DNA from: Candidatus Thermodiscus eudorianus
Lineage (GTDB): Archaea; Thermoproteota; Thermoprotei_A; Sulfolobales; Acidilobaceae
NCBI GenBank assembly: GCA_015521085.1
Contig: WAOW01000006.1
Location: forward strand, 186,001 to 250,000
Direction: 5' to 3'
DNA: 64,000 bases
Shown here: positions 1,963 through 39,984 of the stretch, piece after piece
Numbering within the stretch: position 1 is the stretch's first letter
Layout: each line of letters opens with the position of its first letter
Notes under the pieces: generated by a model
Told to the model about the DNA's origin: nothing
Database searches by the model: none
What the model saw: the letters and a program-made list of their open reading frames with translations, nothing else
Program-made: the position numbers and the translations under genes

Positions 1963-3209
1963 TGAGCGACGGACTCGACGAGGTAATAGAAAAGCTGGCC
2001 AGGGGAGAGATAAGCCTATCCAGGCTAGAGCAAGTGCTCGGTAACCCGAACCTAGCCGCCCTAGCCCGGAGGCTCTTTCTAGAGAGAAAGCTCGGCGTAC
2101 ACCTATCCTCGATAGCAAGCACCATACTAGACTTCTCGGAACTCTACGGTAGGAACATAGAGAACCCTATCGGCGCCGTGCAAGTCCCAGTGGGAGTAGT
2201 TGGGCCGTTGCTAGTGAAGGGAGAATACGCGAAGGGAGAATTCTACGTGCCCCTAGCGACCACCGAGGGAGCCCTTGTCGCAAGCGTCTCACGTGGCGTG
2301 AAGGCCCTGACAGAGAGTGGAGGCGTGACTGTAAGGGTCATAAGTAACGGAATGACTAGAGCCCCCGTCCTTCGATTCGATAGCGTGCTCGACGCGGTGA
2401 GGTTCCTTGAGTGGCTCGACTCGAACTGGGAAAAGCTTAGAGAGGCCGTGAGGGAGACCACTAGGCATGGGAGGCTAACTGGCTACAAGCCATTCCTCGT
2501 TGGAAACCTAGTCTGGATCCGCTTCATATACGAGACCGGAGACGCCATGGGCATGAATATGGCTACGATAGCAACCGATAGGATCTGTAAGAGGATCGAG
2601 AAGGAATACCCTGGGAAAGCCGAGTGCCTCGCAGTAAGCGGCAACTTGTGCAGCGATAAGAAGCCGGCCATCATAAACAGGCTACTCGGGAGGGGCAAGT
2701 ACACGATAGCAGAGGCGGTGGTTAAAAAGGACGTGGTAGAGAGCCTGTTAAAGGCGACGGCCAACGAGATACACGTGGTGAACATGACAAAGAATCTTCT
2801 GGGGAGCGCCGTGGCGGGTAGCCCGAGCTATAACGCACACGTGGCGAATATTATAGCGGCGATATTCCTAGCCACGGGACAGGATATGGCCCAGGTGGTG
2901 GAGTCCAGCCTATCATTTACCTGGACCGAGCCCAGGAGGGGCGACCTCTACATATCCGTCACTCTGCCAAGCCTAGAAGTAGGAACTGTCGGAGGCGGGA
3001 CACGCCTGCCCACTCAGAGAGAGGCTCTCTCTATAATGGGGGTTGCCGGGGGAGGCGAGCCCCCGGGCGTCAACGCGTTAAAGCTAGCCGAAATCATCGG
3101 TGCAACCGTGTTAGCCGGCGAGTTAAACCTACTGGCAGCCCTTGCATCGGACCATTTGGCTAGAGCCCATGAACTGCTTGGCAGGGGTGGAATCCGTGGA
3201 CAGCCGTGA
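1962..3209 (+). CDS. hmgA: Hydroxymethylglutaryl-CoA reductase (class I type)
   Basis: A 415-aa NAD(P)H-dependent reductase converting HMG-CoA to mevalonate, the committed step to archaeal ether lipids. Class I motifs are all present: [32 protein letters not shown] with the catalytic Glu102; DAMGMNMAT; the SDKKPA catalytic Lys; [11 protein letters not shown] with the catalytic Asp; [12 protein letters not shown]; and a C-terminal His in LARAHELLG. Length is typical for archaeal soluble enzymes without a membrane anchor. Start ATG 1962 overlaps the DUF35 stop; the 3' end overlaps the Nudix gene. With the three upstream genes it forms a compact mevalonate operon. Confidence 0.97.
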
Positions 3210-3741
3210 GAGAGTCGAGTGCCGTGGGAGACGTGTGGTCTTCGTTTCAGACATCGAGACACTGCCCAACGGCAGGGTGTCGAGGGTTGACAGGGTCCTC
3301 TTCCCCAGCTCCGTCACAGTGCTACCCCTGGACGAAGAGTCTTGTAGGATAACGCTCCTCCGGCAGTACAGGCCCGCGATAGGAGAGTGGATCCTGGAGG
3401 CGCCCGCTGGAGTAATCGATAACGGCGAGCTCCCCGAGGAAGCTGCAAGGAGGGAGCTAGAGGAGGAGGCCGGCCTCAGCCCATCAAAGCTGGTGAAGCT
3501 TGGAGAAGGTTATACCAGCCCTGGCTACTCGACCGAGTACATGCATATCTACCTGGCGTTAAACCCGGTAGCAACTCGTTCCAACCCGGAGGAGTACGAG
3601 GTCATCAGTGGAGTAGTAGAATATAGCTTGGATGAATCTATATCGAGTATCCTGAAAGGGGAGATACGCGACATCAAGACAATACTCACAATCTACGGGG
3701 CATACAGGTATTGCTCCACAAGACAAACCCGGCCCCAATAA
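3196..3741 (+). CDS. Nudix hydrolase, ADP-ribose pyrophosphatase-like
   Basis: Small Nudix hydrolase (about 181 aa). The Nudix box is intact, starting Gly-Val-Ile-Asp-Asn-Gly-Glu and ending [10 protein letters not shown], matching GX5EX7REUXEEXGU, so metal binding and catalysis should be retained. The core around the box ([18 protein letters not shown]) resembles ADP-ribose/NDP-sugar pyrophosphatases rather than MutT. I choose GTG 3196 because a GGTGG site lies 5 bp upstream; GTG 3187 and a TTG at 3142 are in frame but the latter would overlap HMG-CoA reductase by 68 bp. Even with 3196 the two genes overlap by 14 bp, so it is probably the last gene of the mevalonate operon. Substrate not determinable. 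Confidence 0.88.
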
Positions 3742-3814
3742 CACACCCTCTTTCCCCGCATCCTTCTAGGGTTAATACCCCGACCCTCATCCCCTCCCTC
3801 ACGGTGTATAGCGG

Positions 3815-4651
3815 GTGAAGCCGAGGCTTGCGATAGCCTACAGTGTGAACGATCCCGCTGGAAAGGGCGCGGCCGAGAAACTACTCCAGCTCTACGAGTG
3901 GAGTCCATACGAGTGCAACCACGCAGTAGAATGCTTCAAGCTGTCCAACGGAGTAGTCATGGGCGGATACAGAGAGGAAACCATACACTTCGACTTCATA
4001 GACGAGACCCCAGATCCCTCGGCTGACGCCGTGATAATCCTATCCAGGCACAGCGCCGTCAGCGGGAGGCCAAGCCTCACAACACACCATACCGGTAATC
4101 CCACAGGGAGAGCCGAGTACGGTGGAGAACCCTATAAGCTGAGTATCGCAGCGCCACCACTGTCACGCGCTCTGCTTAGGGCGTATAGGAGTGAAGCCGA
4201 GAAGCTAGGGCTACTAAACGAGTATGAAGTCACGCTGGAAGCCACCCATCACGGACCGACGAAGCCCAGTAAACCACTAGTCTTCATAGAGATTGGATCG
4301 ACCCCGGATAGGTGGAGGGATGAACGAGCTCGCCTGGCTATGGCTAGAGCCGTGGCCCGTGTAATCGATGGGGAGATAGAGGACTGCGAGCCTGCCGCTG
4401 GCTTCGGGGAGCCCCACTACCCCGTGAAGTTCACGCGCATACACTTGGACGGCGACTACTGTATGGGCCATATAATAGCCAAGTATGCCATACCTGATGC
4501 GAACGAGGACGTCATAGCCCAGGCGGTGAAAAACAACTGGCCCCGGCCACATGCTACCGCTCTCGTCCAGAAGAAGGCCGCTAGATCAGAGGTTAGGAGG
4601 AGGCTGGTGAAGGTACTTGAGGGCCTGGGTGTAGATGTCGTCATAATATAG
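3815..4651 (+). CDS. dtdA: D-aminoacyl-tRNA deacylase, archaeal DtdA (DTD2) type
   Basis: A 278-aa protein of the archaeal/plant DTD2 (GEK1) family, a zinc-dependent proofreading enzyme that hydrolyses D-aminoacyl-tRNA and keeps D-amino acids out of proteins. Family landmarks seen in order: SRHSAVSG (about residues 76-83), TTHHTGNPTG, EATHHGPTKPSKP (about 145-157), IEIGSTPDRW and GFGEPHYPVKF (about 198-208), carrying His/Glu residues expected for metal binding. GTG 3815 is the only sensible start and no ribosome site is evident, suggesting leaderless translation. Stand-alone gene after the mevalonate operon. Confidence 0.92.
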   Translation: MKPRLAIAYSVNDPAGKGAAEKLLQLYEWSPYECNHAVECFKLSNGVVMGGYREETIHFDFIDETPDPSADAVIILSRHSAVSGRPSLTTHHTGNPTGRAEYGGEPYKLSIAAPPLSRALLRAYRSEAEKLGLLNEYEVTLEATHHGPTKPSKPLVFIEIGSTPDRWRDERARLAMARAVARVIDGEIEDCEPAAGFGEPHYPVKFTRIHLDGDYCMGHIIAKYAIPDANEDVIAQAVKNNWPRPHATALVQKKAARSEVRRRLVKVLEGLGVDVVII

Positions 4652-4665
4652 GTTCTCTTCTACTG

Positions 4666-5604
4666 TTGGTTGCAACGAGTGTAAATGGGGGGACGGCTCG
4701 GGGACTGTTAGGGATGCTCGACGGGGAACCACTAGGCTATGCGTTTGCTCTGCTAGCCGGGTTGTTCTTCGGGCTCAGCGATGCCCTTGTGAGGGCCGCC
4801 TCAGTCCGGTTAAAGCCCTTGGAGAACCTGTCGATAAGCCTCCTCGTCGGGACTCCTCTCCTCTGGTTTTTCGCTCTCGCAAAGGGTTCCACGAGCGTTG
4901 ATTCAACTGCGATGGTCTACTTTATCCTAGCTGGGTTGCTTAACTTCGTAGTGGGTAGACTCCTCTTCTATATAGCAATAACCAGCCTAGGAGCCACGAC
5001 CGCCTCTATACTAGCGAGCCCTACAGTAATAGTAAGCGCTATACTGGCTTGGTTATTACTGGGGGAAAGTCTAAGCGCTATACAGATGACTGGCATAGTC
5101 TTGGTAATGATAGCCGTCTCCTTGGCATCATTTAGGCCCTCTGGAAAGCCATTGCACAATAGCAAGACCACTATCGGCGTAGTAGCCGGGATAGGATCCA
5201 CTGTGGTCTTCGCTATAACCGCCATATTAGTTAGGAGCGCGGCTGGCTACCTGAACGCCGACCCCTTAACCGGGGTCGCCATATCCTATACCAGTGCCTT
5301 ACCAGTTGCCCTACTGCTAGAGAGAGGCCCTCTACGTCCGGGCATTATGCCGCGTAGGGAGTTATTGTACATGGTTGCCGCCGGCGTTATCGTGGCGTTA
5401 GCCCAGTTATCCCGCTACCAGGCTCTAAACCTGACCTGGGTCGCTAAGGCATCCGTTATAATCTCCTTGTTCCCGCTCTTCACGCTCCTGTTCTCGTATG
5501 TGCTCCGTGGCGAGGCTATGGAGGAGCCCAGCGCTGTACACCTCATAGCGGGTGTGATGGCTGTCGCCGGCATATTCCTGACTAACTACTATGGAGGAGC
5601 ATAG
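4666..5604 (+). CDS. EamA/DMT-family membrane transporter
   Basis: Hydrophobic protein of about 300 aa with ten predicted membrane segments in two repeated halves of five, the architecture of the drug/metabolite transporter superfamily. The first helix region reads FALLAGLFFGLSDALVRAA and each half ends with the usual LLGESLS / VLRGEAM pattern before the last helix (ITSLGATTASILASPT in half one, WVAKASVIISLFPLFT in half two). The start is uncertain: TTG 4666 has no ribosome site, while ATG 4714 sits just before the first helix. Substrate cannot be inferred; neighbours give no clue. Confidence 0.85.
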   Translation: MVATSVNGGTARGLLGMLDGEPLGYAFALLAGLFFGLSDALVRAASVRLKPLENLSISLLVGTPLLWFFALAKGSTSVDSTAMVYFILAGLLNFVVGRLLFYIAITSLGATTASILASPTVIVSAILAWLLLGESLSAIQMTGIVLVMIAVSLASFRPSGKPLHNSKTTIGVVAGIGSTVVFAITAILVRSAAGYLNADPLTGVAISYTSALPVALLLERGPLRPGIMPRRELLYMVAAGVIVALAQLSRYQALNLTWVAKASVIISLFPLFTLLFSYVLRGEAMEEPSAVHLIAGVMAVAGIFLTNYYGGA

Positions 5605-5615
5605 AGTGGTTTTGG

Positions 5616-5727
5616 TGGTAGCCGGGCGGGGATTCGAACCCCGGTCACGGGGGATCCCCTAACGACCCCCCAGCCAGGGGAGCCGTTATCCAAAGCCCCG
5701 CATCCTTGGCCGCTAGACGACCCGGCT
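5616..5727 (-). tRNA. tRNA-Gln (TTG), with a 36-nt canonical intron and encoded CCA
   Basis: Acceptor stem AGCCGGG/CCCGGCT, D-arm GTCT...GGAT, T-arm CGGGGTTCGAATCCCCG, discriminator A and templated CCA. The anticodon loop CTTTGGC (anticodon TTG) is assembled only after removing 36 nt between positions 37 and 38. No other gene lies within 80 bp except EamA upstream and a convergent-side GNAT. Confidence 0.95.
5654..5689 (-). other. tRNA-Gln archaeal intron (bulge-helix-bulge)
   Basis: A canonical 37/38 intron. In the pre-tRNA the exon CUUU pairs with intron GGGG (4-bp central helix), flanked by 3-nt bulges GGA and AUC; an inner helix UAACG/CGUUA closes the intron hairpin. Cutting after the second base of each bulge excises exactly 36 nt and restores the CGGGG/CCCCG anticodon stem. 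This is the expected substrate of the archaeal splicing endonuclease. Confidence 0.9.
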
Positions 5728-5807
5728 ATCCATCGATTATTTAATGGGGGTTCCCTGGCCGTTTAAAGAGTTTCCTGGGTTCGCTGTGACTGTTGAGGTA
5801 GTCGGGG

Positions 5808-6362
5808 TCATGGGAGGCGTATATTGTATTTGGATAGAACTTCTGCAATCTTGTCCCTCGCCGCCTCCAGGTCCATTTCGATTAGGTACGAGTCGCCTAG
5901 ATCATCTATTATCCTCGGGGACAGGTATTTTGTCAGTCGCAGTGCAGGTACGTTGTCCTTGAATACATATGCCCTGAACTTCTTTATACCGTATTGTAGC
6001 GCACAGTAGCCAGCTAGGTTTACTAGCAGGCGGCCTAGCCCCATTCCCTGGAAGTCGTCTAGCACCGCTACCGCTGGTTCTCCCACGTCTGGCCAGGTCG
6101 TCTTATAGACCTCGCTACACCCTATTATGCTACCCTTGTATTCGATTGCTATGCAGAATAGCGTGTCCTTCCCTCCGAGCATTTTATCGATTATCTCGCC
6201 GAAGTCCTTTATCAGCCTGAAGAACCTGTGGTATATCGATTCCTCCGACATCCTCTTCAGGAACTCTTCGACCTTGGGCTTATCGAAGGGCGAGGGTCTA
6301 CGGGCTATGATGGTGCCTAGCTTGGGGTGTGGCACCTCTATGTGGAGGCTCCTACAGTCCAT
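5808..6362 (-). CDS. GNAT-family N-acetyltransferase
   Basis: A 184-aa GNAT protein. The acetyl-CoA binding motif A is DDFQGMGLGRLLV (about residues 102-114), matching the Q/R-x-x-G-x-G/A loop; a following YGIKKFRAYVFKDNVPALRL segment matches the motif B region. The family includes archaeal protein lysine acetyltransferases of the Pat type, but no substrate evidence is present. Its ATG lies inside the 3' end of the upstream amidohydrolase (11-bp overlap), so the two are probably co-transcribed and translationally coupled. Confidence 0.85.
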   Translation of the reverse strand: MDCRSLHIEVPHPKLGTIIARRPSPFDKPKVEEFLKRMSEESIYHRFFRLIKDFGEIIDKMLGGKDTLFCIAIEYKGSIIGCSEVYKTTWPDVGEPAVAVLDDFQGMGLGRLLVNLAGYCALQYGIKKFRAYVFKDNVPALRLTKYLSPRIIDDLGDSYLIEMDLEAARDKIAEVLSKYNIRLP

Positions 6363-7296
6363 CGCCGCTACACCTTACACCGAATATCTCCTCTGCGAAG
6401 CCGTGGAATGTGGCCTCGATATCCCTGGCCTTGTAGCCTGCTGCCCGGAGAGCCCTTGCTACTTGGAGTGCGAATAGTCTTATGTCGTCGTTGTCTATTA
6501 CCGGGTAGTCTGAGCCGAATATTAGCTTGTTTGTGGATAGAGTCTTCGCGGCTGAGCCTGCTAGGTGTGGTGGGACCGCTGAGGTGTCGAGGTATACTCT
6601 CTCGTATTTGTTGGCTAGGTGCACTGCCTCCTGGGTGAATACCCCTGGGGCTATAGCGCTATAGCCCCCCAGGTGGGCTAGCACTGTTACCACGTCCCTA
6701 TGCCTGGATAGTATGGAGTCGAGCCTTGAGGGGTCCCCGTATTTACAGTATTTTGGTAGCTCCCATATGCCTGGGTCGCACCCGGTGTGGACTACCACGG
6801 GTAATCCCTTGGAGTCTGCGACCTCGAATACTGTCTCGACTGTCTCGTCGTCTAGGAACTTGAAGAAGAGGGTAGATAGTACCTTGAATCCCCGGAAGCC
6901 TAGGCTGGCTAGCGCTTCAAGCCGGTCTGCTAGTCTCTCGGGGTCCATTGCTAGATTGGCCGCGGCTAGTATAGCATAGTTCTCTCCGCTTGGCTCGAAC
7001 TCGCATAGCTCTCCGTAGCTTGCTAGTAGGTTTACGACGTTGAGGTAGAGGGCTTCCGGTGTAAGGGACTCTTTTATATCGCTGGCGTATCTCTCGATGA
7101 GGTATTCTATCCTACCGTATTCCTTCTCGATGTGTGTTATGTCGATGTGCTGCAGGATTTCTTTTACAGATGGGACTCCTAGTATGACTGCTCCTCCTAT
7201 TCCGTGTTCCCTGAGCCTTGATACTAGTTGCCTGGGGGTTAGCTTTGGTTGTATCGGTAGGTGTACGTGAGCGTCTATTATGCACCTGGGCAGCAT
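6352..7296 (-). CDS. Amidohydrolase-2 family TIM-barrel metal-dependent hydrolase
   Basis: A 314-aa TIM-barrel hydrolase of the amidohydrolase/decarboxylase (PF04909) type. Metal ligands are visible in order: DAHVHL (HxH at residues 9-11), VVHTGCDPG (His at strand 5), VLAHLGGYS (His at strand 6) and FGSDYPV (Asp at strand 8). Such enzymes hydrolyse or decarboxylate small carboxylates, but the substrate cannot be read from sequence. First gene of a two-gene unit with the GNAT protein; its start faces the AT-rich region shared with the divergent acyl-CoA synthetase. Confidence 0.82.
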   Translation of the reverse strand: MLPRCIIDAHVHLPIQPKLTPRQLVSRLREHGIGGAVILGVPSVKEILQHIDITHIEKEYGRIEYLIERYASDIKESLTPEALYLNVVNLLASYGELCEFEPSGENYAILAAANLAMDPERLADRLEALASLGFRGFKVLSTLFFKFLDDETVETVFEVADSKGLPVVVHTGCDPGIWELPKYCKYGDPSRLDSILSRHRDVVTVLAHLGGYSAIAPGVFTQEAVHLANKYERVYLDTSAVPPHLAGSAAKTLSTNKLIFGSDYPVIDNDDIRLFALQVARALRAAGYKARDIEATFHGFAEEIFGVRCSGDGL

Positions 7297-27786: not shown

Positions 27787-28866
27787 CTAAATTAATATAA
27801 TAATTATAGATAATAATATTATTACGGCTTCGAGTAAGAGGATGAAGGCCACAACATCGCTCTCAGACACATGTGTAGGACACTCATAACTACCGCTCTT
27901 TATCTTGGCTAAGAGTTTCAACGCTATGTGGGTCACGCTATAGACCTTGTCTGACGGCGGTGCCAGACTCCCGTCGGGGCATACGTAGGCAAAGTTTCGT
28001 TTCTCCACGCCCGTGGCTTTGGCTCGTAGGAAGAGCGCTAGCTCTACGAAATACAATGCGAAGACGGCCACGCCGAACTTCTCGAAGTTACCCAATATCA
28101 CGAGCCCCGCGAAGTACGCTCCGATGCCATATGTAAACGAGTTACCGGGAAACGTCAGCGCGGGGTACTTGTTATACGCTATAAACGCCAGTATGGCAGC
28201 GATGCCTATCACCGACGCTACTATTACCAGGTCTAAGCCCTTCAACAAGCCCAGGACCAGCGACGCCAGCAGTAGTAGCATCCCCATACCCGCCTCCAGC
28301 CCGTTATAGCCAGCTAGCATGTTGAAGGCATTCGAAGCCCCTATGACCCCAATGGGGACCACGACAAGGGGATACAGGAGGCCTAGATCGACCACTCCCA
28401 CGAGCGGCACATCTAGCCGTGAGTAGCCGGCTTTTATCGCGACCAGGGGAAGTGATATGGGTGCCATGAGGGCGATCCTTGTCAGAGGGGATAATCCCTT
28501 AACCTCTGTATCGCTTCGTTTGTAGCTGATTAGGCTCAATACATCGTCTATGAAGCCCATTAGCGTTGAGAGGAGGGTCATGAGGGATAATGCTAGTAGC
28601 GATGAGAGGACGAACTCGCTTCCACGGCAATATATCTGTATTATCTCGAAGAACAATAACCCCATACTTATAGCGATAAGTGTAAAGGTGCCCCCTGCTG
28701 CAGAGGCATGGGGCTTGCCTGGTTTGTTCTCGTCGGGAACCATGAATAGACTAGTCTTGGAGGTCAGCTTGATCCATTTACGGGTGAGTACTAGGTTTAT
28801 AGCGAATGCTATTAGAGACGCTGCTAGCAGGTCAATTGCGTGTATCTCTGTGTCGCCTAGTTGCAT
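27787..28866 (-). CDS. GT4-family UDP-sugar:polyprenyl-phosphate sugar-1-phosphate transferase (AglH/ALG7-like)
   Basis: About 359 aa with ten or so membrane helices. The glycosyltransferase-4 motifs are present: PGKPHASAAGG (substrate loop), GFIDDVLSL (catalytic DD), and SNAFNMLAGYNGLEAG (NxxN/D...NGLE motif of the ALG7/MraY superfamily). It probably transfers GlcNAc-1-phosphate or similar to dolichyl phosphate, starting N-glycan assembly for surface proteins such as the S-layer nearby. ATG 28866 is behind GGGAGG and overlaps the TrmY-like gene by 10 bp. The last helix is encoded by an extremely AT-rich stretch. Confidence 0.9.
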   Translation of the reverse strand: MQLGDTEIHAIDLLAASLIAFAINLVLTRKWIKLTSKTSLFMVPDENKPGKPHASAAGGTFTLIAISMGLLFFEIIQIYCRGSEFVLSSLLALSLMTLLSTLMGFIDDVLSLISYKRSDTEVKGLSPLTRIALMAPISLPLVAIKAGYSRLDVPLVGVVDLGLLYPLVVVPIGVIGASNAFNMLAGYNGLEAGMGMLLLLASLVLGLLKGLDLVIVASVIGIAAILAFIAYNKYPALTFPGNSFTYGIGAYFAGLVILGNFEKFGVAVFALYFVELALFLRAKATGVEKRNFAYVCPDGSLAPPSDKVYSVTHIALKLLAKIKSGSYECPTHVSESDVVAFILLLEAVIILLSIIIILI

Positions 28867-29438
28867 GCCTCGGCCTCCCACTCCAGGTAGGCTATTACCT
28901 GGCTGGTCTGGTAGCTGAGGGGACCTATACTGGCCTTCGCATCGATATAGTTTCTTATGTCGTTAATTATGTGTTCTGGGATGTCGATTTGAGCGCCCAG
29001 GAGATACGCTCTGGGTTTTACCCGGGGAAGCCCTGATATATCCTCGCCGTCCTCTGCCAGCAGGATAGTTTCGAAGCCTGCTTTGCTTATGATAGATACA
29101 ACGTCTCTAACACCTATAGCGTACCTATCTATGCATACGCTCTTACCTTGCACTGATTTTCGAATGTATTGTAGAGCCTCTCTTTCACTTGAAAACCTGC
29201 ATCCCTCCCTATACCTGTATACTATAGTTGCTGGGGGGTTTGGCGGGCCTAGCAGGACTGCTACTAGGAGTGATTTACTCCTAGCGATGCTGAGCATGGA
29301 CCTGGCTATCTCGTCTATTCTACCACTAGGTCCCGCGTAGCCCCGGAGAGGATAGTTTGTGTCCGTCCTGGCGGTAGGTGAAACGATAATGTAAATGGTG
29401 TCAGCGGATTCCTTGTGTATTGTTTCTTTGAAGGTCAA
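28857..29438 (-). CDS. trmY: TrmY-like SPOUT tRNA (pseudouridine54-N1)-methyltransferase
   Basis: 193 aa. The SPOUT-type pattern of TrmY is visible: YAGPSGRIDEIARSM near the N-terminus, LLGPPNPPATIVY (about residues 63-75), the ILLAEDGEDISGL loop (about 125-137) and YLLGAQIDIPEH, matching the family LLGPPxPP, HEDGxDL and LGDHIGF positions. TrmY makes m1-pseudouridine at position 54 of archaeal tRNAs using SAM. Some substitutions (GAQID for GDHIG) leave exact specificity open. Overlaps both neighbours, so part of the nfo-115aa-trmY-GT4 operon. Confidence 0.78.
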   Translation of the reverse strand: MTFKETIHKESADTIYIIVSPTARTDTNYPLRGYAGPSGRIDEIARSMLSIARSKSLLVAVLLGPPNPPATIVYRYREGCRFSSEREALQYIRKSVQGKSVCIDRYAIGVRDVVSIISKAGFETILLAEDGEDISGLPRVKPRAYLLGAQIDIPEHIINDIRNYIDAKASIGPLSYQTSQVIAYLEWEAEACN

Positions 29439-30742: not shown

Positions 30743-31324
30743 CTATATGAGTGTCTCGTGTATCTCTAGGTTAGCTAGTTTCATCAAGTTCCTTAGTGCC
30801 TCTGTTTTGGTCTCGGCATTATACCAGTTTAACAAGTTGTTTTTCTCCAGGTATTCTAGTGTTTCTACTATCTTTATCTTCTCCTTGACGCCGAGGGTTA
30901 GTATGTTCACGTCTACTCTATGGTTTGCCGCGTATATGGTTGCTAGTTCTAGGGGTGCTCCTGCGTTATAGTCTCCGTCTGTTATCATTACGATCTTCCG
31001 TTTCCTTAGGCTCTTCCGCAGCATTTTTACCGCGTCTATTATAGCGTCTCCTGGAGCCGAGCCTTCGAACGTCTTGTTGATTATTGATAGTGTCTTCATA
31101 ATTTGCGATATATTGTCTGTGGGAGGTAGTAGTGGTATTGACTTGTTGTAGAAGACAACTATGCCGATTCTGCTTCCCTTCTGTTTTAGTATACGCTCGA
31201 CTATCATTGACATTATATGGAGTGTTGCGGATAACTTGCTTGGTTGCATGTCGTTAAATGATCTCCCCATGCTCAGGCTTACATCTATAATATATACAAT
31301 GTCTTCAATCTCTTGATCCTTCAC
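30743..31324 (-). CDS. VWA-domain protein with largely intact MIDAS
   Basis: 193-aa von Willebrand A domain, no signal peptide. MIDAS motif DVSLSMG (Asp14, Ser16, Ser18) and MITDGDYNAG (Asp116) are present; the middle Thr region is atypical (FEGSAPGDA). VWA domains bind metal-dependent protein partners. Its start overlaps the stop of the upstream RHH-PIN gene by 4 bp, so the two are co-translated. Third gene of an unusual VWA-like / RHH-PIN / VWA unit next to the S-layer gene. Function of the unit not known to me. Confidence 0.82.
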   Translation of the reverse strand: MKDQEIEDIVYIIDVSLSMGRSFNDMQPSKLSATLHIMSMIVERILKQKGSRIGIVVFYNKSIPLLPPTDNISQIMKTLSIINKTFEGSAPGDAIIDAVKMLRKSLRKRKIVMITDGDYNAGAPLELATIYAANHRVDVNILTLGVKEKIKIVETLEYLEKNNLLNWYNAETKTEALRNLMKLANLEIHETLI

Positions 31325-32085
31325 CGTTGCTCTGCCTCCTCCATACTACTTGGATACATGTATGGCAGGCCTCTTAGCGATAACAGGGTCTCTCTATATT
31401 CAATGTCGTTTATTATTTTTTGTTTTCTGGCATATAGTAGGAAGCTGATTGAAGGGATTACCTTAATGTTATTCTGGCTCGCTACCTTTTGCACGTAGAA
31501 ATCGTCGGATACCACTGTCATCTTTGTATTCTTAGCATGGTTTATTATTGAGTATTCGTGTCGTGTTAGTAAGAGATTCTGTGGGGGTTTCGATTCCTTA
31601 ATCTTGATTAGCTTGAAGGCGGGGAGCTTCTTTGCTCCCACTCTTGAGGCTGTGGCGCTCATTAATCTATAGTAGTGGGCTAGGCTCTCGGGTATGTAGA
31701 GCTCTATGACGTTGCCAACTCCATGAAATATATTATATAATAATGTATTGAATATCACGAATATCGATATGGAGTCGATAAGGTAAGTCCCAGATGAATC
31801 GACGTCTGGTACATCCCCCTGCCAACCTAATCCTGGAGTCACGCCGTTAACGAGCAAGTAGTCAATAAACTTCGGACAGGTAGTTTCGGCGAATTCACAG
31901 GCGTATGCTAATGAAGAGCCCTTCGTGACGTAGAAATTTAAAGCGATCCTCCTTAGATCCATGGAGGAAAGCATCCTCCTAACGGCGTCTCTAACCGCTT
32001 CAGAGACGCTGGCATATATGCCTAGATCCACCAGTCTCCTCAACTTGTGTTCAAGCACGCCGGATATCTCGACGCTTACTACCAT
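31321..32085 (-). CDS. RHH domain fused to a PIN-like nuclease domain
   Basis: 254 aa. Residues 1-45 form a ribbon-helix-helix module (VSVEISGVLEHKLRRLVDLG, ASVSEAVRDAVRRML). After a linker (about 46-97), residues about 100-235 look like a PIN nuclease: first Asp104 in YLIDSIS, Glu177 in TRHEYSIINHA, and Asp194/195 in MTVVSDDFYVQKVA followed by the typical gi-V-x-x-x-x-x-LL-x-A segment. DNA-binding and RNase modules normally reside in separate antitoxin and toxin genes; here they are one chain, flanked by VWA proteins. Two small AT-only patches lie inside. Confident in RHH, fairly confident in PIN. Confidence 0.75.
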   Translation of the reverse strand: MVVSVEISGVLEHKLRRLVDLGIYASVSEAVRDAVRRMLSSMDLRRIALNFYVTKGSSLAYACEFAETTCPKFIDYLLVNGVTPGLGWQGDVPDVDSSGTYLIDSISIFVIFNTLLYNIFHGVGNVIELYIPESLAHYYRLMSATASRVGAKKLPAFKLIKIKESKPPQNLLLTRHEYSIINHAKNTKMTVVSDDFYVQKVASQNNIKVIPSISFLLYARKQKIINDIEYRETLLSLRGLPYMYPSSMEEAEQR

Positions 32086-32141
32086 ATGGGTAGTCCCTCT
32101 GGAAGGCCCGGTACATATATGGATTTGTGAATAATTATAAG

Positions 32142-32693
32142 CTAGATAGCGTATCCCAATCCCTCTGAGACGTGCTCTAGCGACTTACTCACTAGGGTCT
32201 CTATCTTCATATTCTGTCTCAAGTAGATTACACCTCCTAATAGCGACATTATCCTGTTCTTCATCAACCATTTTGGCGGCGATGTAGTGGGGACCACAAG
32301 CAAGGGTTTCAATCCATTATTTAAACTGGATACGAGGATTAGTTCGAAGTCCTGTACACCTCTACGTGGCGGCTGCCATACTATTACGAGCCTTGGATGC
32401 TCTAATTGAGCGTCACCGAGTTCTGTGACCAGCTTTACGACCTGAGAGGGGTCACTACGTCCGTGGAAATCTTTTATACCAGCTATGTGTGCAAGGATCC
32501 CTTGTTTATCTAGTGGTAGTTGTGCCTCGGCACTGTACTCTATAATGGGATACGCGTTCTCTCCAAACAAGATTATAGTAAATAGTTTATAGCTTTCTAA
32601 GACGTCAAGTACTCTCGCTAGCATCCTGAGCCTGAGGGACCGGGGGATACTGCTTGTATAGTCTAAGGCAAAAAACATCGTGGGCTCGAACAA
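32142..32693 (-). CDS. Degenerate VWA-like protein
   Basis: 183 aa with the alternating hydrophobic strands of a Rossmann-like VWA fold: FFALDYTSSIP near the N-terminus (DxTxS in place of DxSxS), KLFTIILFGENAYPI, HPRLVIVWQPPRRG and GLKPLLVVPTTSPP. The third MIDAS Asp (TDG) is missing, so metal-dependent binding is probably lost or altered. It begins 50 bp downstream of the S-layer gene stop and ends 56 bp before the RHH-PIN gene, all on the same strand. Confidence 0.6.
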   Translation of the reverse strand: MFEPTMFFALDYTSSIPRSLRLRMLARVLDVLESYKLFTIILFGENAYPIIEYSAEAQLPLDKQGILAHIAGIKDFHGRSDPSQVVKLVTELGDAQLEHPRLVIVWQPPRRGVQDFELILVSSLNNGLKPLLVVPTTSPPKWLMKNRIMSLLGGVIYLRQNMKIETLVSKSLEHVSEGLGYAI

Positions 32694-32742: not shown

Positions 32743-35700
32743 TTAAGGAGCCTTCTTGAAGAGTAGACCTACGGCGACGAGTACTATTATCAGTATGATT
32801 ACGTCTAGCACTAGCAGTAGCGTCAGCTTGCCGCCCATGCCGCTCACGTTCTTGTTTGTCTCGTCGACCTTTGAGGCCACGTCGCTTACGCTCTTCTGCA
32901 GGCTGCCGAGGTTATTGTTTACGTCAACTACTGATCCCTTGATGTCGGCTACGTCGCCCTGCACCTGCGCTACAGCGCCTGATAGCTGGTCTAGCTTGTT
33001 GTTGATTCCGGATAGAGTGTCGCCTAGACCCTTCAGCGCGTCTAGGTTGCCTAGACCCTGTTCTAGCGCCTGCTTTAGCGCGTCTATCGAGGCTGTGATG
33101 TTGCCTGCCTTGGTGTTTATCACTGCTACTACTTCGTCTCCCTTGTTCTCAACAGTTACCTTTACGTCATTCAGCAGTCCCTTCACGGTATCCAGGTCTG
33201 CGGTTACTGTTCCTAGGGTTGTCTGTATAGTCGCGACACCATCGGATATGTCGGTTATCGTTGGCTCTAGCTCGTCGAACTTAGTCAGTAGCACGGATAC
33301 CGTTGAGTTGACAGTGTTGACTACCGTCGCTAGCTGGTCCTCGACTCCAGCCAGTAGCAGTCCGCTGCCCTTGATGAACATTATGCCGCCGAAGGTCTTC
33401 CAGCCTGTCTCTGATACCGTGTAGTTGACAGTGTATGGAGCTGTTGTGTTGTCTATTACGCTGGGTGCTGCGAGCTGGAACTTGAATTCAACTCCCACTA
33501 TTCCGGCATCCTCGGCGTTGGGCACCTTGAATGATAGAGCTAGTAGACCATCCTCGTATGTTGCTGATACTGGTACTGTGACTTCGCTGCCGTCGGGTAG
33601 TGTTAGCTTGGCTACTACCTTGCCGAATGCTGCTACGAACTTCATCTTGACTTCGTCGCTTGCTCCTGAGATGTTTGCTGGGAACTGGAGTCCTGACAGT
33701 ACTGTGCTGTCAGCGTAGACTGTGAATGTTGACCCTGCTATTGCGTATGGCATGTTGTCTAGGTAGAATCCGTGTCCGGGTAGTAGTATCACTAGTATTG
33801 GCTCCTCTAGTATTGGCGTGGTTGGGTCGTCTACGGCTACGATGTTCACGTAGTAGTCCTCGTATACTAGGCCGAAGGGTATCGGGAATGACACGGTTAG
33901 AGTGCCGGTTCCGTCGCTGAACCATACGTATGGTAGTGGCTCTCCTAGCTCGTCTGCGGTCGGTGACCATGTGACCATGTAGGCTCTGTTGGGTGCTACT
34001 CCGCTTACTGTTATCGTCATGGTGTCGCCTGATGAGAAGTACGGTGATGATGGGGCTGAGACTAGTGCTGGTACTATCTTGATTGTCGTTGGGAAGGTCT
34101 CGTAGGTGACTGTTCTCTGTATGTACGCGGCGTAGGTTCCGGCTGGGACTGCGGGTACTGTTATTGTGAATACTACGGCTCCGTGGTTGTTAGCGTTGCC
34201 GTGGGCTACGGTGCCTATTGTTGAGAATCCGCCTACTAGGGCCTCGCCGGCCTCGAAGTTGACTCCGATTACCTTGATTACATCGCCTGGGTTGGCTTCT
34301 GTCGGGTCTACGAATACCTTTGCTCCTCCGTAGAGGTCTGCTCTCGGGCTTGAGGCTATGAACTTGAATGCTCCGGCCAGCTCGCCCTCAGCTGCTCCGT
34401 AGTAGTACTTTACTGCTAGTAGGTTTAGACCGACTACTGATGCGTCGTTTGGTAGCTGTATTCTAGCTACTAGGGTTCCAGTGTTGTCCGACCAGAGTAC
34501 TGTCTTTAGCTTGTTTGACGTGTCATAGACCGGTACGCTTACACCGTTGAGTTCTATGGTGTACGCCTCGCCTGGTACTAGTCCTGTGAATACTACCTGT
34601 ATGTAGTCGCCTGGGTGTACTACCTTGTAGGGTCCAGCGGTTTCTAGCCTGGGTGTTATGCTGGATGGCGAGCTTATCACGCTCTGGACAGTACCACCAG
34701 CGAACTGTATCATGTAGTAGCTTGTGTGTGTGTATGTTGATGCGATTGTTGCCCCTAGCGCGGTCTTTAGTTCAACCTGAATGTTTACTATGTCGCCAGT
34801 AGCCCAGTTGTTTAGTAGGTCTGCATAGGCTACTACGTACTTGAAGTGTAGTACTCCATTCTCGTTTGCTATGAAGTAGCCTCTGCCTAGGCTACCCTCG
34901 ACTACGTCTACTTGGTATACTCTGTAGTTCGTCGCAATGTTGAATGACGTGCTGCCCATTACCTCTTCTACTTTTACCTTTGCATTGGGTGAGAGTCCGT
35001 CAACATAGAAGTGGATCGTTTGCACTCCTGAGAGTAGATAGTCGGCGTTTGGTCCATAGCCGTCCGGCTCCCACCATACGTCGACATCCCAGGCTATCTT
35101 GACTTTGTATGGGTTGTTGCCAACTCCGACTCCTACTAGGGTTCCACCGGTGTTCGGGTCTACGGCCTCTGCTGTTAGTCTGTATACTATCTGGTTGGCG
35201 TTGTTGTCGTAACCTGGTAGGACGGGTGTCTTTACCCATCCTACAGCTGCTCCCCTATCGTCGGTTGTTAGTTTGCCAGCCTCCTTATGGCCAACATATA
35301 TCGTTACTTCTGTGTTTGCTGGGAAGTTGATTACTGCAACCTTGAACGCCCATCCAACTTGTCTGGTGATCGTTGAGCCTGCTGAGAGGACGCTGGTTGG
35401 ATCTGAGGGGTTGAATACTACCATGAACTCGTCTCCATAAGCTGTTGGAGTTGATATGGCCATTACCGAGTATATGCTGTCGCTTCCGTCACCAGCTGGC
35501 CCTAGGCCTCCTAGTGGGAATGTTCCAGGGGTGTAGTCTACGTCTCCTGAGGCGTAGGTTAGTGTGACATCGACCATGCCGCCGCTTATCCCGGCGGGCT
35601 TGTTGTCTAGTAGCTCTATTGTGAACTGCACGTTACCGTTTGCATCGGCTATTCCGCCGCTTGTGATTCTAGCTCTTATGAGGGCCCTTGAGGAACCGTC

Positions 35701-36624
35701 GAAGACGGAGAGTGCTACTGGTGTTGTCGTGTCTAGCTTTGAGTTTGCTGGGAAGCCCTTTCCTGTTAGGGTCACTGTCTCGCCGATTACGCCCTGGAGG
35801 GAGAACTTGCTTGGTGATAGGCTTGGCTTTACGTATACCCACATGAATGCGCCGTAGCCAGCGTCGCTGACTGCTACTACTGCGTGGAATCCTTCAGGCG
35901 CGTCTGGCACTGTGAACGATACTTTTCCGAAGCCACCACTGGTACTGGTTAGTGTCTGTCCTCCATAGTAGTCCCAGTAGAGGGTTACTGTGTCCCCGGG
36001 TATGTAGTAGTAGACAGTTACAGTCTGTCCTGGGCTTGCCTGCTTGACCGTGCTAGGCCTGTTGAATACTGTTAGTGTCGGGAGTGAGCTGCTGCTGTAT
36101 GTTACTCCTATGTAGTAGCTTGGGTTCGCGCTACCGATCCAGGGTACTCTGCCTCCCCAGTCTTCTACTGTCAGCTCGGGGCCTACTACTCCTGAGGAGC
36201 CGTCGGCCGAATCTGAGACAAGTAGGTATGCCGAGCCGGCTGAGAGGTAGTCTGAGCCCTTGAGGGCCGCGTCGCTGTAGTCGTTTGGCAGGTATATGAT
36301 CGAGCCCTCTGGGATGGTCGTCTGCCCTGGCTTTAGTCCGATCCATGCGTCGCCATTACCTGTGCCCCAGTTGTTGCTGTTTGATAGCTTGATGTAGAGT
36401 GTGGCTCCTGGCGTGAAGGAGCCGCTTACCTGCTTTACTGTTAGTAGAACGTCTTGTCCCTTTACGATCTTGCTGGGGTAAACCTCTAGCTGTGTCCCTC
36501 CTGATACTGCTTGCGATACGAAGAGGTTGCCTAGTAGTCCGCTTAGCGCTGCTAGTGGCGTGGCTACCATTAGGGCTATAAGTATTAGCGACGCGATCTT
36601 CCTCGTAGTATATCTATTCGACAC
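32743..36624 (-). CDS. S-layer protein with C-terminal coiled-coil stalk and membrane anchor
   Basis: About 1293 aa. N-terminal Sec-type signal (ASLILIALMVATPLAALSG), then a series of beta-sandwich (Ig-like) repeats up to about residue 1110, rich in Tyr, Gly and Thr with phrases such as PGDYIQVVFTG and NPGDVIKVIGVNF recurring. Residues about 1140-1260 are a heptad coiled coil (ALKQALEQGLGNLDALKGLG, VQGDVADIKGSVVDVNNNLG), followed by a C-terminal transmembrane helix and KKAP. It combines the lattice and the stalk/anchor roles that Sulfolobales divide between SlaA and SlaB. GTG 36624 follows GGGTGAG; an in-frame GTG at 36642 is possible. Very high expression expected. Confidence 0.9.
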   Translation of the reverse strand: MSNRYTTRKIASLILIALMVATPLAALSGLLGNLFVSQAVSGGTQLEVYPSKIVKGQDVLLTVKQVSGSFTPGATLYIKLSNSNNWGTGNGDAWIGLKPGQTTIPEGSIIYLPNDYSDAALKGSDYLSAGSAYLLVSDSADGSSGVVGPELTVEDWGGRVPWIGSANPSYYIGVTYSSSSLPTLTVFNRPSTVKQASPGQTVTVYYYIPGDTVTLYWDYYGGQTLTSTSGGFGKVSFTVPDAPEGFHAVVAVSDAGYGAFMWVYVKPSLSPSKFSLQGVIGETVTLTGKGFPANSKLDTTTPVALSVFDGSSRALIRARITSGGIADANGNVQFTIELLDNKPAGISGGMVDVTLTYASGDVDYTPGTFPLGGLGPAGDGSDSIYSVMAISTPTAYGDEFMVVFNPSDPTSVLSAGSTITRQVGWAFKVAVINFPANTEVTIYVGHKEAGKLTTDDRGAAVGWVKTPVLPGYDNNANQIVYRLTAEAVDPNTGGTLVGVGVGNNPYKVKIAWDVDVWWEPDGYGPNADYLLSGVQTIHFYVDGLSPNAKVKVEEVMGSTSFNIATNYRVYQVDVVEGSLGRGYFIANENGVLHFKYVVAYADLLNNWATGDIVNIQVELKTALGATIASTYTHTSYYMIQFAGGTVQSVISSPSSITPRLETAGPYKVVHPGDYIQVVFTGLVPGEAYTIELNGVSVPVYDTSNKLKTVLWSDNTGTLVARIQLPNDASVVGLNLLAVKYYYGAAEGELAGAFKFIASSPRADLYGGAKVFVDPTEANPGDVIKVIGVNFEAGEALVGGFSTIGTVAHGNANNHGAVVFTITVPAVPAGTYAAYIQRTVTYETFPTTIKIVPALVSAPSSPYFSSGDTMTITVSGVAPNRAYMVTWSPTADELGEPLPYVWFSDGTGTLTVSFPIPFGLVYEDYYVNIVAVDDPTTPILEEPILVILLPGHGFYLDNMPYAIAGSTFTVYADSTVLSGLQFPANISGASDEVKMKFVAAFGKVVAKLTLPDGSEVTVPVSATYEDGLLALSFKVPNAEDAGIVGVEFKFQLAAPSVIDNTTAPYTVNYTVSETGWKTFGGIMFIKGSGLLLAGVEDQLATVVNTVNSTVSVLLTKFDELEPTITDISDGVATIQTTLGTVTADLDTVKGLLNDVKVTVENKGDEVVAVINTKAGNITASIDALKQALEQGLGNLDALKGLGDTLSGINNKLDQLSGAVAQVQGDVADIKGSVVDVNNNLGSLQKSVSDVASKVDETNKNVSGMGGKLTLLLVLDVIILIIVLVAVGLLFKKAP

Positions 36625-36683
36625 TTTACACTCACCCTTCACTCGGGTGTTTCAGTCTGTTTCTCTTAACACGGGTCAGACAG

Positions 36684-36830: not shown

Positions 36831-38060
36831 TTGGGCTTGAATAGAAGCGCGTTGCCACTAGTTGCAGTAGGCGCGATCGTGTTCCTCCTATTATTAGCGT
36901 ATAGTCTAGCTGGCTTAGCCTATAGTCCGCTTTATAGTGTTGTTCTTGAACGTGAAAGCCTGGCTTCTGTGCAACCAGGTACTCTAGTCCTAGATAGTAT
37001 CTTCTTCAGGGGACAAGAGGTTGCCTTGGTGTCTAACAATATGTCCACGTCACTACTCTTTATAGGAGAAGACGGCTCAACCAAGGAAGTTACTATAATT
37101 AATGGTGGCGTGAAGGCTGGGGCTATGAGCGTTGCATCTCCCGATTTACTGTTAGTCTCCACATTATTTAATAATGAGTCTATTCACATCTATGGTGTTT
37201 ATCCGAATTATAAATATAAACTCTTATATAATATTAATATTAATCCTTTATTTTATTCCATCGAGGATGTATCAATATCACCCACCGGCTATATTGCTGC
37301 TGGAGGAACGACTGTCTCGGCTAAATTGAGCCTCCAGAGCTATCTGGTACTGATGCACGGAGATAAAGTCTTATGGAGTAAAGAGTGGGGTGGACCTGAC
37401 AAGGATGTCGTTGTTGATGTAGAGAATAGTGACGACCTTGTATGTAGTCTCTCGATTCCAAACATATTGAGATGTTTTGACACAATGGGTAATTTAGTTA
37501 TGGAAAGAATGCTTGGAGATACCATTACTTCATTTAAAATTTATGATAATTATATTATAATAAATTATATTCAATTTAATAAATCTTATATAGCTGGTCT
37601 TGATCGTGACGGCGCCATAAAATGGAATGTAGACGTGACCCCATATATAATTACTGATATAACTATAAATTATTATAATAATATAATTGCTGCATCAGGC
37701 TTCATTAAAGTAAATAACCGCTATTATCCTGGTCTAGTATTTATTGATAAAGAGGGAAGACTCTTAATTAAATCAAAGTTTGATCACGTCCTAAAGCGGC
37801 CAATGATATTTCTAGTTAATAGCTATAGCGACAAGTTTGCTGTCACCTACATTAATGGTACAACGTTGCATTTGGATATAGTTGAGCTGAATAAGATCAA
37901 TCAAACTACCTCCACCGTCACTCAAGGTAATTCAACGACGTCCATCGAAGGTGTGGGAAGTGTTAACAAGCTATTATTGATCCATTATATATTAATATTA
38001 ATTATAATTTCTACTATTGGTATAGGTATCTATTTATTTAAAGTAAAAATTAATAAATAA
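36831..38060 (+). CDS. Extracellular beta-propeller-like protein with N- and C-terminal membrane anchors
   Basis: 409 aa. N-terminal helix (ALPLVAVGAIVFLLLLAYSL, about residues 7-26), an exterior domain of repeated four-strand blades (for example SYLVLMHGDKVLWSKEW, SYIAGLDRDGAIKWNV, GLVFIDKEGRLLIKS), a Ser/Thr linker (STVTQGNSTTS) and a C-terminal helix then KINK. Blade-like repeats suggest a propeller as in WD/YVTN-like surface proteins. Codons are far more AT-rich than neighbours, with long A/T-only runs (37,200-37,260; 37,540-37,690). Start TTG 36831 or 36837, after GAGGT. Confidence 0.7.
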   Translation: MGLNRSALPLVAVGAIVFLLLLAYSLAGLAYSPLYSVVLERESLASVQPGTLVLDSIFFRGQEVALVSNNMSTSLLFIGEDGSTKEVTIINGGVKAGAMSVASPDLLLVSTLFNNESIHIYGVYPNYKYKLLYNININPLFYSIEDVSISPTGYIAAGGTTVSAKLSLQSYLVLMHGDKVLWSKEWGGPDKDVVVDVENSDDLVCSLSIPNILRCFDTMGNLVMERMLGDTITSFKIYDNYIIINYIQFNKSYIAGLDRDGAIKWNVDVTPYIITDITINYYNNIIAASGFIKVNNRYYPGLVFIDKEGRLLIKSKFDHVLKRPMIFLVNSYSDKFAVTYINGTTLHLDIVELNKINQTTSTVTQGNSTTSIEGVGSVNKLLLIHYILILIIISTIGIGIYLFKVKINK

Positions 38061-39984
38061 TTAAAATAATAATTTTAAATAGTTTATAGCTATCTATGTA
38101 ATAAGGCAGATACGCTACGTAGTTACCTGGCACGTCTATATCGAACTCTTGTGCTGGAACTTCGGCAAGATCATTCGCGTACAAGTCAGAGGGAACTCTT
38201 ATCGGACGTGTTGTTGACTGTAAATCAATAATATTTATGTATATTGTATCAGCGCTTGAGGAGTTGATTGGTATACCACCTATTAAGGGGGCTAATCCAT
38301 GATACGTGTTGTTGAATTGCCTTAGATATCCGTCCCCCACAGGAAGTACAACTAGATATTCTGATCCATGAATAATATCTTTTATTAATATTAATGCCGG
38401 ATAGTATTGGGGATAGCCCACAGGTGTTTCAACGGAAGACACATTATACCTGTAGTATTCGTAGGGACCCATACTATCATGAGTATAATCTACCTTAATC
38501 CTAGTAGTTGCCGGTAGAATCTCTGGAGGATTATACTTTACTGCGAGATTTGTTATGTTACGCAATGGAATGGCTTTCCAAGAATCAGTCACTGGTCTTG
38601 TTACAGTCACTCCATTGAGCTCCATTTCTATATAGGCTTGACCCGATAGATCCTTCGAAGAGTCCTTGTACATGAATTGCATCATCGCTTTAGTTATTGC
38701 GTTTGAGTATGAAGGTACTATCTTAATCAGCCTGTAGTTTATCGCACTATCAGCAGAGAGGGGCTGGAGTTCGGCCTTGGCAGTGGTCGAATTCAGCAAC
38801 AACACCTCTCTTAAGAATAGGGTTGCGTTCATGTCAAACTTTCCTAGGTCCGAGGTGCTAACTAATAGGGCGATGCCATAGTTGGTTAGGAATGATCCGT
38901 TCGCCCATCCTTTGAAATCCACTGTCTTACCGTAGTATAGCCTGCATGTCCCATCTAGCTCTGATGTAAAACTAGATAAAGGAGAGTAAACAGTTGGTAG
39001 TACGTAAGTCTCGTTGTTATAGTTGCAGTTGTTTGTGCTTGAGTGATAGTTTACCTTGAGGTCTACCTGTATATCCCCGGAGACAAGTAATGTCGTAGAA
39101 GCTCTAAGGGTTGATGCGTCTGGCGAGAACGCGATTCCTATGATACACAATGGAGTTGAAATGTCACATAGTACTCTGCCGTATAACTTGACTGCTCTTC
39201 CATCGTCATTATAAGTGTAGATGTATCGGGCGACTGGACTGTTATTGGACGGCACTGTGATTGTGGTAGACGCTATTAACGTGTCTCCGTCTAGTGTATA
39301 GAGTTTGAAATCTATGTTATCTCCTGGATATCCGCTTCCATTTATTCTCAGCTTGAAAGTTGTTATCGTGTAGGGATCCCCCCGGAGTACGGTGTGTAGG
39401 CTTGGAGAACCCTCTACTAGGTGGAGAGCCTCGTTTGCTATGGAAACCACTGTCTCGTTGGAATTGGTGCTTGGGTTGTTGCTGTAACCCGTTGCATTGA
39501 ATAATGTTTCTATATAGCTACAATCAATATATGTTTTTCTTATTATACTTGATTTTATCTTATCGGGTAACATTAATGCCAGGGGGTCTCGCGTTGGGGT
39601 GTAGGGGATTAGTATCCCTTCTCCGATCTCTAGGTAAACTCGGACTGGCGAACAATCATAGGTATCGTCTACGATAATCTCAGAAGTATTAAATATCGTC
39701 TTGTTTATTGCAATGAAAGTTAAGTTATCGTTTTTTAGGTAGTATATCCCCTTTAGATATGTTGGTGAAAAAGTATATATTACTACTGATAATGTCTTGT
39801 TTTCTAGTCTGGGACTCATATATAGTGGTTGCGATGAGAGTACCAGTCGCCTAGACGCGTCTTCCACGCTTTCTTCCATAATCTTCGAGACGTGCGTCGA
39901 CGTGTATGCCATGTACGCCACTATGGATGACATAGCGCTGATAAGTATTAATGCCCCGATTAACTCACTTAGTCCTCTCCTCAT
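38050..39984 (-). CDS. Large surface protein with type IV pilin-like (class III) signal
   Basis: 644 aa beginning MRRGLSELIGALILISAMSS: basic residues plus Gly then a Leu/Ile helix, the class III signal cut by the archaeal prepilin peptidase PibD, as in pilins and archaellins. The rest is a long beta-rich, Asn/Thr/Tyr-rich exterior with many N-x-S/T sequons (NKT, NLT, NTS, NST). At over 600 aa it is much larger than ordinary pilins, so it may be a tip adhesin or a pilin-anchored surface protein. Converges on the propeller protein with an 11-bp overlap. TATAAAAACA at about 40010 implies a nearly leaderless mRNA. Confidence 0.75.
   Translation of the reverse strand: MRRGLSELIGALILISAMSSIVAYMAYTSTHVSKIMEESVEDASRRLVLSSQPLYMSPRLENKTLSVVIYTFSPTYLKGIYYLKNDNLTFIAINKTIFNTSEIIVDDTYDCSPVRVYLEIGEGILIPYTPTRDPLALMLPDKIKSSIIRKTYIDCSYIETLFNATGYSNNPSTNSNETVVSIANEALHLVEGSPSLHTVLRGDPYTITTFKLRINGSGYPGDNIDFKLYTLDGDTLIASTTITVPSNNSPVARYIYTYNDDGRAVKLYGRVLCDISTPLCIIGIAFSPDASTLRASTTLLVSGDIQVDLKVNYHSSTNNCNYNNETYVLPTVYSPLSSFTSELDGTCRLYYGKTVDFKGWANGSFLTNYGIALLVSTSDLGKFDMNATLFLREVLLLNSTTAKAELQPLSADSAINYRLIKIVPSYSNAITKAMMQFMYKDSSKDLSGQAYIEMELNGVTVTRPVTDSWKAIPLRNITNLAVKYNPPEILPATTRIKVDYTHDSMGPYEYYRYNVSSVETPVGYPQYYPALILIKDIIHGSEYLVVLPVGDGYLRQFNNTYHGLAPLIGGIPINSSSADTIYINIIDLQSTTRPIRVPSDLYANDLAEVPAQEFDIDVPGNYVAYLPYYIDSYKLFKIIILIIY

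Follow-up and report, generated by a model that had tools for sequence, protein, structure and literature searches.

An RHH-UPF0175-PIN fusion protein and its von Willebrand A partner are linked to S-layer and surface-protease genes in archaea

A single-chain protein that combines a ParD-type ribbon-helix-helix (RHH) domain, a UPF0175 (COG2886)-like HTH and a PIN domain forms an invariant unit with a von Willebrand A protein, VWA1, and in thermophilic archaea this unit is linked to genes for S-layer-like proteins and surface proteases. The locus was studied in a window of 64,000 nucleotides (the whole stretch of DNA that was analysed), belonging to an archaeal genome of 1.52 Mb. The first-pass annotation of the window had described three ORFs on one strand between 30743 and 32693, the last two overlapping by 4 bp, and all of this was found as described. 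The overlap reads GTGA, the TGA stop codon of the fusion gene lying under the GTG start codon of VWA1. The features of the locus are:

30743..31324 (-): VWA1, 193 aa; apparently cytosolic von Willebrand A protein, MIDAS intact; GTG start
31321..32085 (-): RHH-UPF0175-PIN fusion, 254 aa
31960..32085 (-): RHH domain (ParD-type) of the fusion, residues 1-42; from TIGR02606 and ParD/CopG PDB chains
31816..31959 (-): UPF0175 (COG2886)-like HTH of the fusion, residues 43-90; from hhalign and the family HMM
31324..31794 (-): PIN domain of the fusion, residues 98-254; from AF2, Foldseek and residue conservation
31774-31776, 31555-31557 and 31501-31503 (-): PIN catalytic-type codons D104, E177 and D195, respectively
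32142..32693 (-): VWA2, 183 aa; VWA fold, degenerate MIDAS; from AF2 and Foldseek
32743..36642 (-): S-layer-like protein gene, 1299 aa; signal sequence, C-terminal coiled coil and membrane anchor

The fusion and the VWA proteins

Neither a stop codon nor a frameshift separates the domains of the fusion, in the window or in relatives. The protein had been described at first as an RHH-PIN fusion. Both domains are indeed present, but the two-domain description does not hold, as the UPF0175-like HTH sits between them. The RHH model TIGR02606, a ParD antitoxin model, is matched by all 35 family members considered (35/35, best 8e-9), the score of the window protein falling under the curated cut-off of the model, and the family profile matches ParD/CopG chains of the PDB at 2e-5. 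For residues ~43-90, a profile-profile comparison with UPF0175 (hhalign) gives an E-value of 3.7e-6 and a probability of 87% over 37 columns. Moreover, the family HMM matches UPF0175 proteins at 1e-4 to 3e-3, and single sequences give a Pfam UPF0175 match in 4 of 19 members (best 0.01).

Structure prediction yields a PIN fold with high confidence (AF2 pLDDT 94.5), and the best folds retrieved by Foldseek are the PIN/PRORP nucleases 2mdt, 1o4w and HARP (E ~1e-3, prob ~1.0). The active site is largely conserved among 35 members of a family that diverges to about 25% identity. D104 is kept in 34 of them, and E177 and D195 in all (35/35). D194, which had also been listed as in place, is found in only 23/35. 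The GTLG motif and the motif-II Glu of free-standing PIN relatives are lost and not conserved, respectively, in the fusion family. Given a motif-II Glu that is not conserved and a D194 that varies, nuclease activity of the fusion, as read from its sequence, is likely but not assured.

VWA1 matches Pfam VWA_2 (6.6e-14), and its family profile matches BatB (3ibs) at 1.7e-24. The residues of its MIDAS, D14-x-S16-x-S18 and D116, are each kept in at least 90% of 35 homologues. A Pfam search with VWA2 gave no match. Its AF2 model (pLDDT 84) nevertheless aligns with VWA A-domains in Foldseek (E ~1e-8), and in the family alignment the DxSxS/Asp MIDAS motif is not conserved while the VWA fold is retained. 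The contrast between an intact and a degenerate MIDAS, proposed from the window, is borne out by the alignments of the two families. The fusion, VWA1 and VWA2 have no obvious export signal, so that all three look cytosolic.

The group of genes recurs in related genomes. Both outcomes that would have spoken against the first-pass reading, a missing PIN fold and a trio restricted to the window, are thereby contradicted. The fusion and VWA1 are kept together across at least six archaeal families, including many genera of the window's own family; VWA1 adjoins the fusion in nearly all loci, and the two genes usually overlap or lie a few bases apart. At most one copy of the full-length fusion is reported per genome. 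The genomes compared include those that we take to be Aeropyrum pernix K1 (G016), A. camini (G024), Staphylothermus hellenicus (G053), Pyrolobus fumarii (G051), Acidilobus saccharovorans (G022) and Caldisphaera lagunensis (G008). In family f10, the fusion ORFs are unusually long (L089, 9775-10986, 403 aa; L090, 9962-10891, 309 aa). The L089 ORF overlaps a divergent S-layer-like gene, which suggests that its true start is probably internal. VWA2 occurs at most loci, usually as the third gene, 3' of VWA1. However, it is inverted in five loci (L056, L063, L064, L066 and L075), lies 5' of the fusion in the window and L098 (by eye also in L081), and is missing from several lineages. The VWA genes of L065, L067 and L096 were chosen with the guidance of HMMs, antisense shadow ORFs being set aside. 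Thus, of the VWA pair initially proposed, VWA1 is constant, whereas VWA2 is common but movable and absent from several lineages, so that the pairing is not universal. That the gene order of the window is an assembly artefact is disfavoured by the VWA gene found 5' of the fusion in L098 and, by eye, L081.

Linkage to S-layer and surface-protease genes

Of 33 loci that form the main clade of the protein tree, 30 have an S-layer-like or subtilase gene immediately 5' of the fusion on the same strand, a count that includes the window, where VWA2 intervenes and the S-layer gene is one gene farther off, as well as L046 and L055, where short contig-end ORFs carry a coiled coil and an anchor resembling an S-layer tail. 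The upstream S-layer-like proteins of this clade have a signal sequence, a C-terminal coiled coil and a membrane anchor. The upstream subtilase is a secreted protein of ~1300 aa (PF00082, 9e-31 in L080), and in loci whose contigs reach far enough it is itself encoded 3' of the S-layer-like gene. The other clade has five loci where the S-layer-like gene and the fusion gene diverge. Two distant families have a surface-protease gene in the divergent position: L098 encodes the same subtilase there, and L100 a pro-kumamolisin, whose gene (3953-7015; PF09286, 1e-34) takes the place of the subtilase.

Among 165 genomes, 27 have both the fusion and a match to an S-layer profile, and the two lie within 10 kb in 24 of the 27 (12 of 14 genera); it should be noted that this count is biased by a profile built from S-layers adjoining the module, and that p-values attached to it overstate independence, the genomes being related. 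Four genomes have an S-layer match without the fusion, two of which (G073 and G102) have the S-layer match or the linked subtilase at a contig start, so that the absence is uncertain there. Genomes of the Acidilobus and Caldisphaera types and a few others have the fusion and VWA1 without adjacent S-layer genes. Downstream neighbours vary, with at least six kinds. The neighbour type is strongly clustered on the protein tree, which is consistent with vertical inheritance. Two complete genomes of one genus may be compared here: G053 has the S-layer-like gene, the subtilase and the module together, whereas G089 has neither a full-length fusion nor an S-layer match and only a more distant subtilase. 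Altogether, conserved synteny and co-occurrence rule out chance adjacency of the module and the S-layer gene, and they strongly support the link to the surface layer that the first-pass annotation had guessed.

Other genes accompany the locus. The S-layer-like gene of the window is present in one copy in its genome. At 38050-39984 (-), the window encodes a protein of 644 aa whose N-terminus is pilin-like and which matches nothing in Pfam. Members of this family (c7) are encoded 5' of the S-layer-like gene in L061, L062, L066, L070, L071, L073, L075 and L080; their recurrence at this place in several genera suggests that they may be a further component of the S-layer locus. On the other side, a GPT-like PF00953 glycosyltransferase (27787-28881 (-), E 6.6e-28) is co-linear 3' of the module in the window, L046 and relatives, and possibly has a role in surface N-glycosylation.

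Inspection by eye of the region between the S-layer and fusion genes reveals T-runs that follow the stop codon of the upstream gene, and TATA-like boxes ahead of the fusion gene. Such signals suggest that the module is transcribed from a promoter of its own, separately from the S-layer gene. A palindrome scan of the 90 bp 5' of the fusion gene revealed nothing common above shuffle expectation.

A possible control module derived from toxin-antitoxin parts

In cells of this kind, S-layer proteins usually rank among the most abundant. In a review of archaeal S-layers, expression control is covered only for the slaA/slaB genes of Sulfolobales (PMC5744192). With a conserved candidate regulator that adjoins this gene in Aeropyrum, Staphylothermus and relatives, the control of S-layer expression would become directly testable.

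UPF0175 (COG2886) and PIN genes are known as adjacent partners of type II toxin-antitoxin (TA) systems (PMC2701414). In the same genomes as the fusion, free-standing PIN paralogues identified by a family-profile search adjoin UPF0175 genes. Since UPF0175 and PIN are neighbours in known TA pairs, including in the same genome, the fusion looks like a domesticated TA operon. In the simplest history, consistent with domain homology, an ancestral UPF0175-PIN operon would have become a single chain and gained an N-terminal ParD-type RHH. Outside the window, contig C6 of genome G000 (2773-5050) also carries clustered UPF0175 genes that have PIN genes next to them, unfused relatives of the domains in the fusion.

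We tentatively propose, with somewhat less than even confidence, that the fusion and its VWA partners are a domesticated control module dedicated to the S-layer locus, in which a DNA-tethered PIN regulator is gated by VWA proteins. For the fusion, we infer a DNA target, an RNase activity, an RNA substrate and gating by VWA proteins. The fusion, probably dimerised through its RHH, would bind promoter DNA of the S-layer or fusion gene, perhaps with a contribution of the UPF0175-like domain. Once bound, it would repress or tune both the operon that encodes it and the S-layer and surface-protease genes next to it. Restraint of the PIN domain would come from the antitoxin-like domains of the same chain and from VWA1, joined by VWA2 at the loci that have it. 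These partners might sense an imbalance, such as surface protein that has not been exported or a shift in divalent metal, and release the PIN domain. Its targets for cleavage would be transcripts, the abundant S-layer mRNA being the most plausible one. An RNase gated by VWA partners, already raised as a speculation in the first-pass annotation, is plausible from the sequence. The most complete version of the proposal, a system dedicated to S-layer homeostasis, is unlikely to hold in all its parts: a DNA-tethered, TA-derived RNase, gated by a metal-binding VWA protein and a degenerate paralogue, would trim or repress S-layer and surface-protease transcripts and thereby match coat synthesis to growth in hyperthermophilic archaea.

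The domain composition can also be accommodated by a regulator of the S-layer locus that acts on transcription alone. Its RHH and UPF0175-like domains would bind DNA, and the VWA proteins would modulate this binding; the PIN domain, nearly or wholly inactive as a nuclease, would contribute to dimerisation or to the binding of nucleic acids. The presence of two DNA-binding antitoxin-type domains in one chain, the loss of the two PIN motifs mentioned above and the S-layer linkage argue for this explanation; however, D104, E177 and D195, invariant or nearly so at such low identity, are hard to explain without a metal-dependent function, and we hold it to be rather unlikely. Alternatively, the module may act after transcription, in S-layer biogenesis or quality control. 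In that case the VWA proteins would assist the precursors of the S-layer or the protease, or their export, as scaffolds or chaperone adaptors, the fusion being mainly an autoregulator that reports VWA occupancy. In favour of this, no partner of the fusion is more constant than VWA1, and the cluster resembles a biogenesis locus in containing a surface protease and, in some genomes, the downstream PF00953 glycosyltransferase. Such VWA proteins usually pair with MoxR-type ATPases, however, and a regular-expression screen for a MoxR-like ATPase (a Walker A/B protein of 230-450 aa) found none among the neighbours of 52 loci. We hold this explanation to be improbable.

Every part of the fusion derives from toxin-antitoxin families, and a TA or defence module could have settled in the S-layer region by chance, its PIN toxin acting under stress or infection and the VWA proteins serving as antitoxin or sensor. 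In defence annotation (PADLOC), the PIN region matches nothing but the candidate system PDC-S70, and this weakly (8e-5). Against such a module stand the presence of at most one reported full-length copy per genome, the tree-clustered neighbours, the deep conservation and the constant S-layer linkage; moreover, no viral contig encodes a relative of the fusion. We regard a TA or defence role as quite improbable.

The control module dedicated to the S-layer locus is preferred because of the conserved linkage, the antitoxin and PIN domain make-up, the free-standing PIN paralogues beside UPF0175 genes, the residues D104, E177 and D195, the tight coupling of the fusion and VWA1 genes, the clustering of neighbour type on the tree, the lack of viral relatives and the apparently cytosolic nature of the three proteins; the linkage stands out against downstream neighbours that vary. 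On the other side, the null operator scan, the poorly conserved motif-II Glu and variable D194, the unlinked genomes, the separate transcription signals and the bias of the S-layer profile count against it. If the proposal is true, a housekeeping regulator has arisen by fusion and domestication of toxin-antitoxin parts, and cytosolic VWA proteins gain a role without a MoxR ATPase.

Comparison with known systems

A search of the open-access literature, most subscription literature lying outside its scope, found no description of the locus. Several described systems share components with it. In MoxR-vWA conflict systems, VWA proteins occur with effector domains, possibly including PIN (PMC7159879). 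The joint presence of VWA proteins and PIN is similar here; however, the VWA and PIN domains are on separate chains, the genes are at an S-layer locus, and a MoxR-vWA conflict system is rejected as the screen found no MoxR-like gene near the 52 loci. According to the citations in PMC4858521 and PMC5898192, ArnB is a vWA regulator of the archaellum in Sulfolobus. ArnB resembles the VWA proteins of the module in affecting the expression of a surface structure in crenarchaea, but its partner is the FHA protein ArnA instead of an RHH-UPF0175-PIN fusion, and the target structure differs.

The neighbours of the module recall tetrabrachion and the STABLE subtilase of Staphylothermus marinus, whose S-layer assembly has been reviewed (PMC5744192). 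The coiled-coil, C-terminally anchored S-layer-like protein and the ~1300-aa secreted subtilase are alike in component kind. A phmmer search of the PDB with the S-layer-like protein of L080 retrieved no tetrabrachion chain; the architecture of the protein fits tetrabrachion. The assembly described does not include a cytosolic module.

RHH-PIN pairs of the VapBC/ParD type share the ParD-type RHH and the PIN domain with the fusion. Here, however, the two are fused with a UPF0175-like domain between them, there is no separate antitoxin gene, and VWA partners are present. A canonical TA pair is rejected in view of the single chain, the neighbour type clustered on the tree and the lack of viral relatives. 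The COG2886-PIN pairs have the same type of HTH beside the same PIN superfamily, and such pairs occur in the window's genome and in relatives. Those pairs consist of two separate adjacent genes, whereas the fusion is one chain with an added RHH, tied to VWA genes and to the S-layer locus, with a neighbour type that follows the protein tree.
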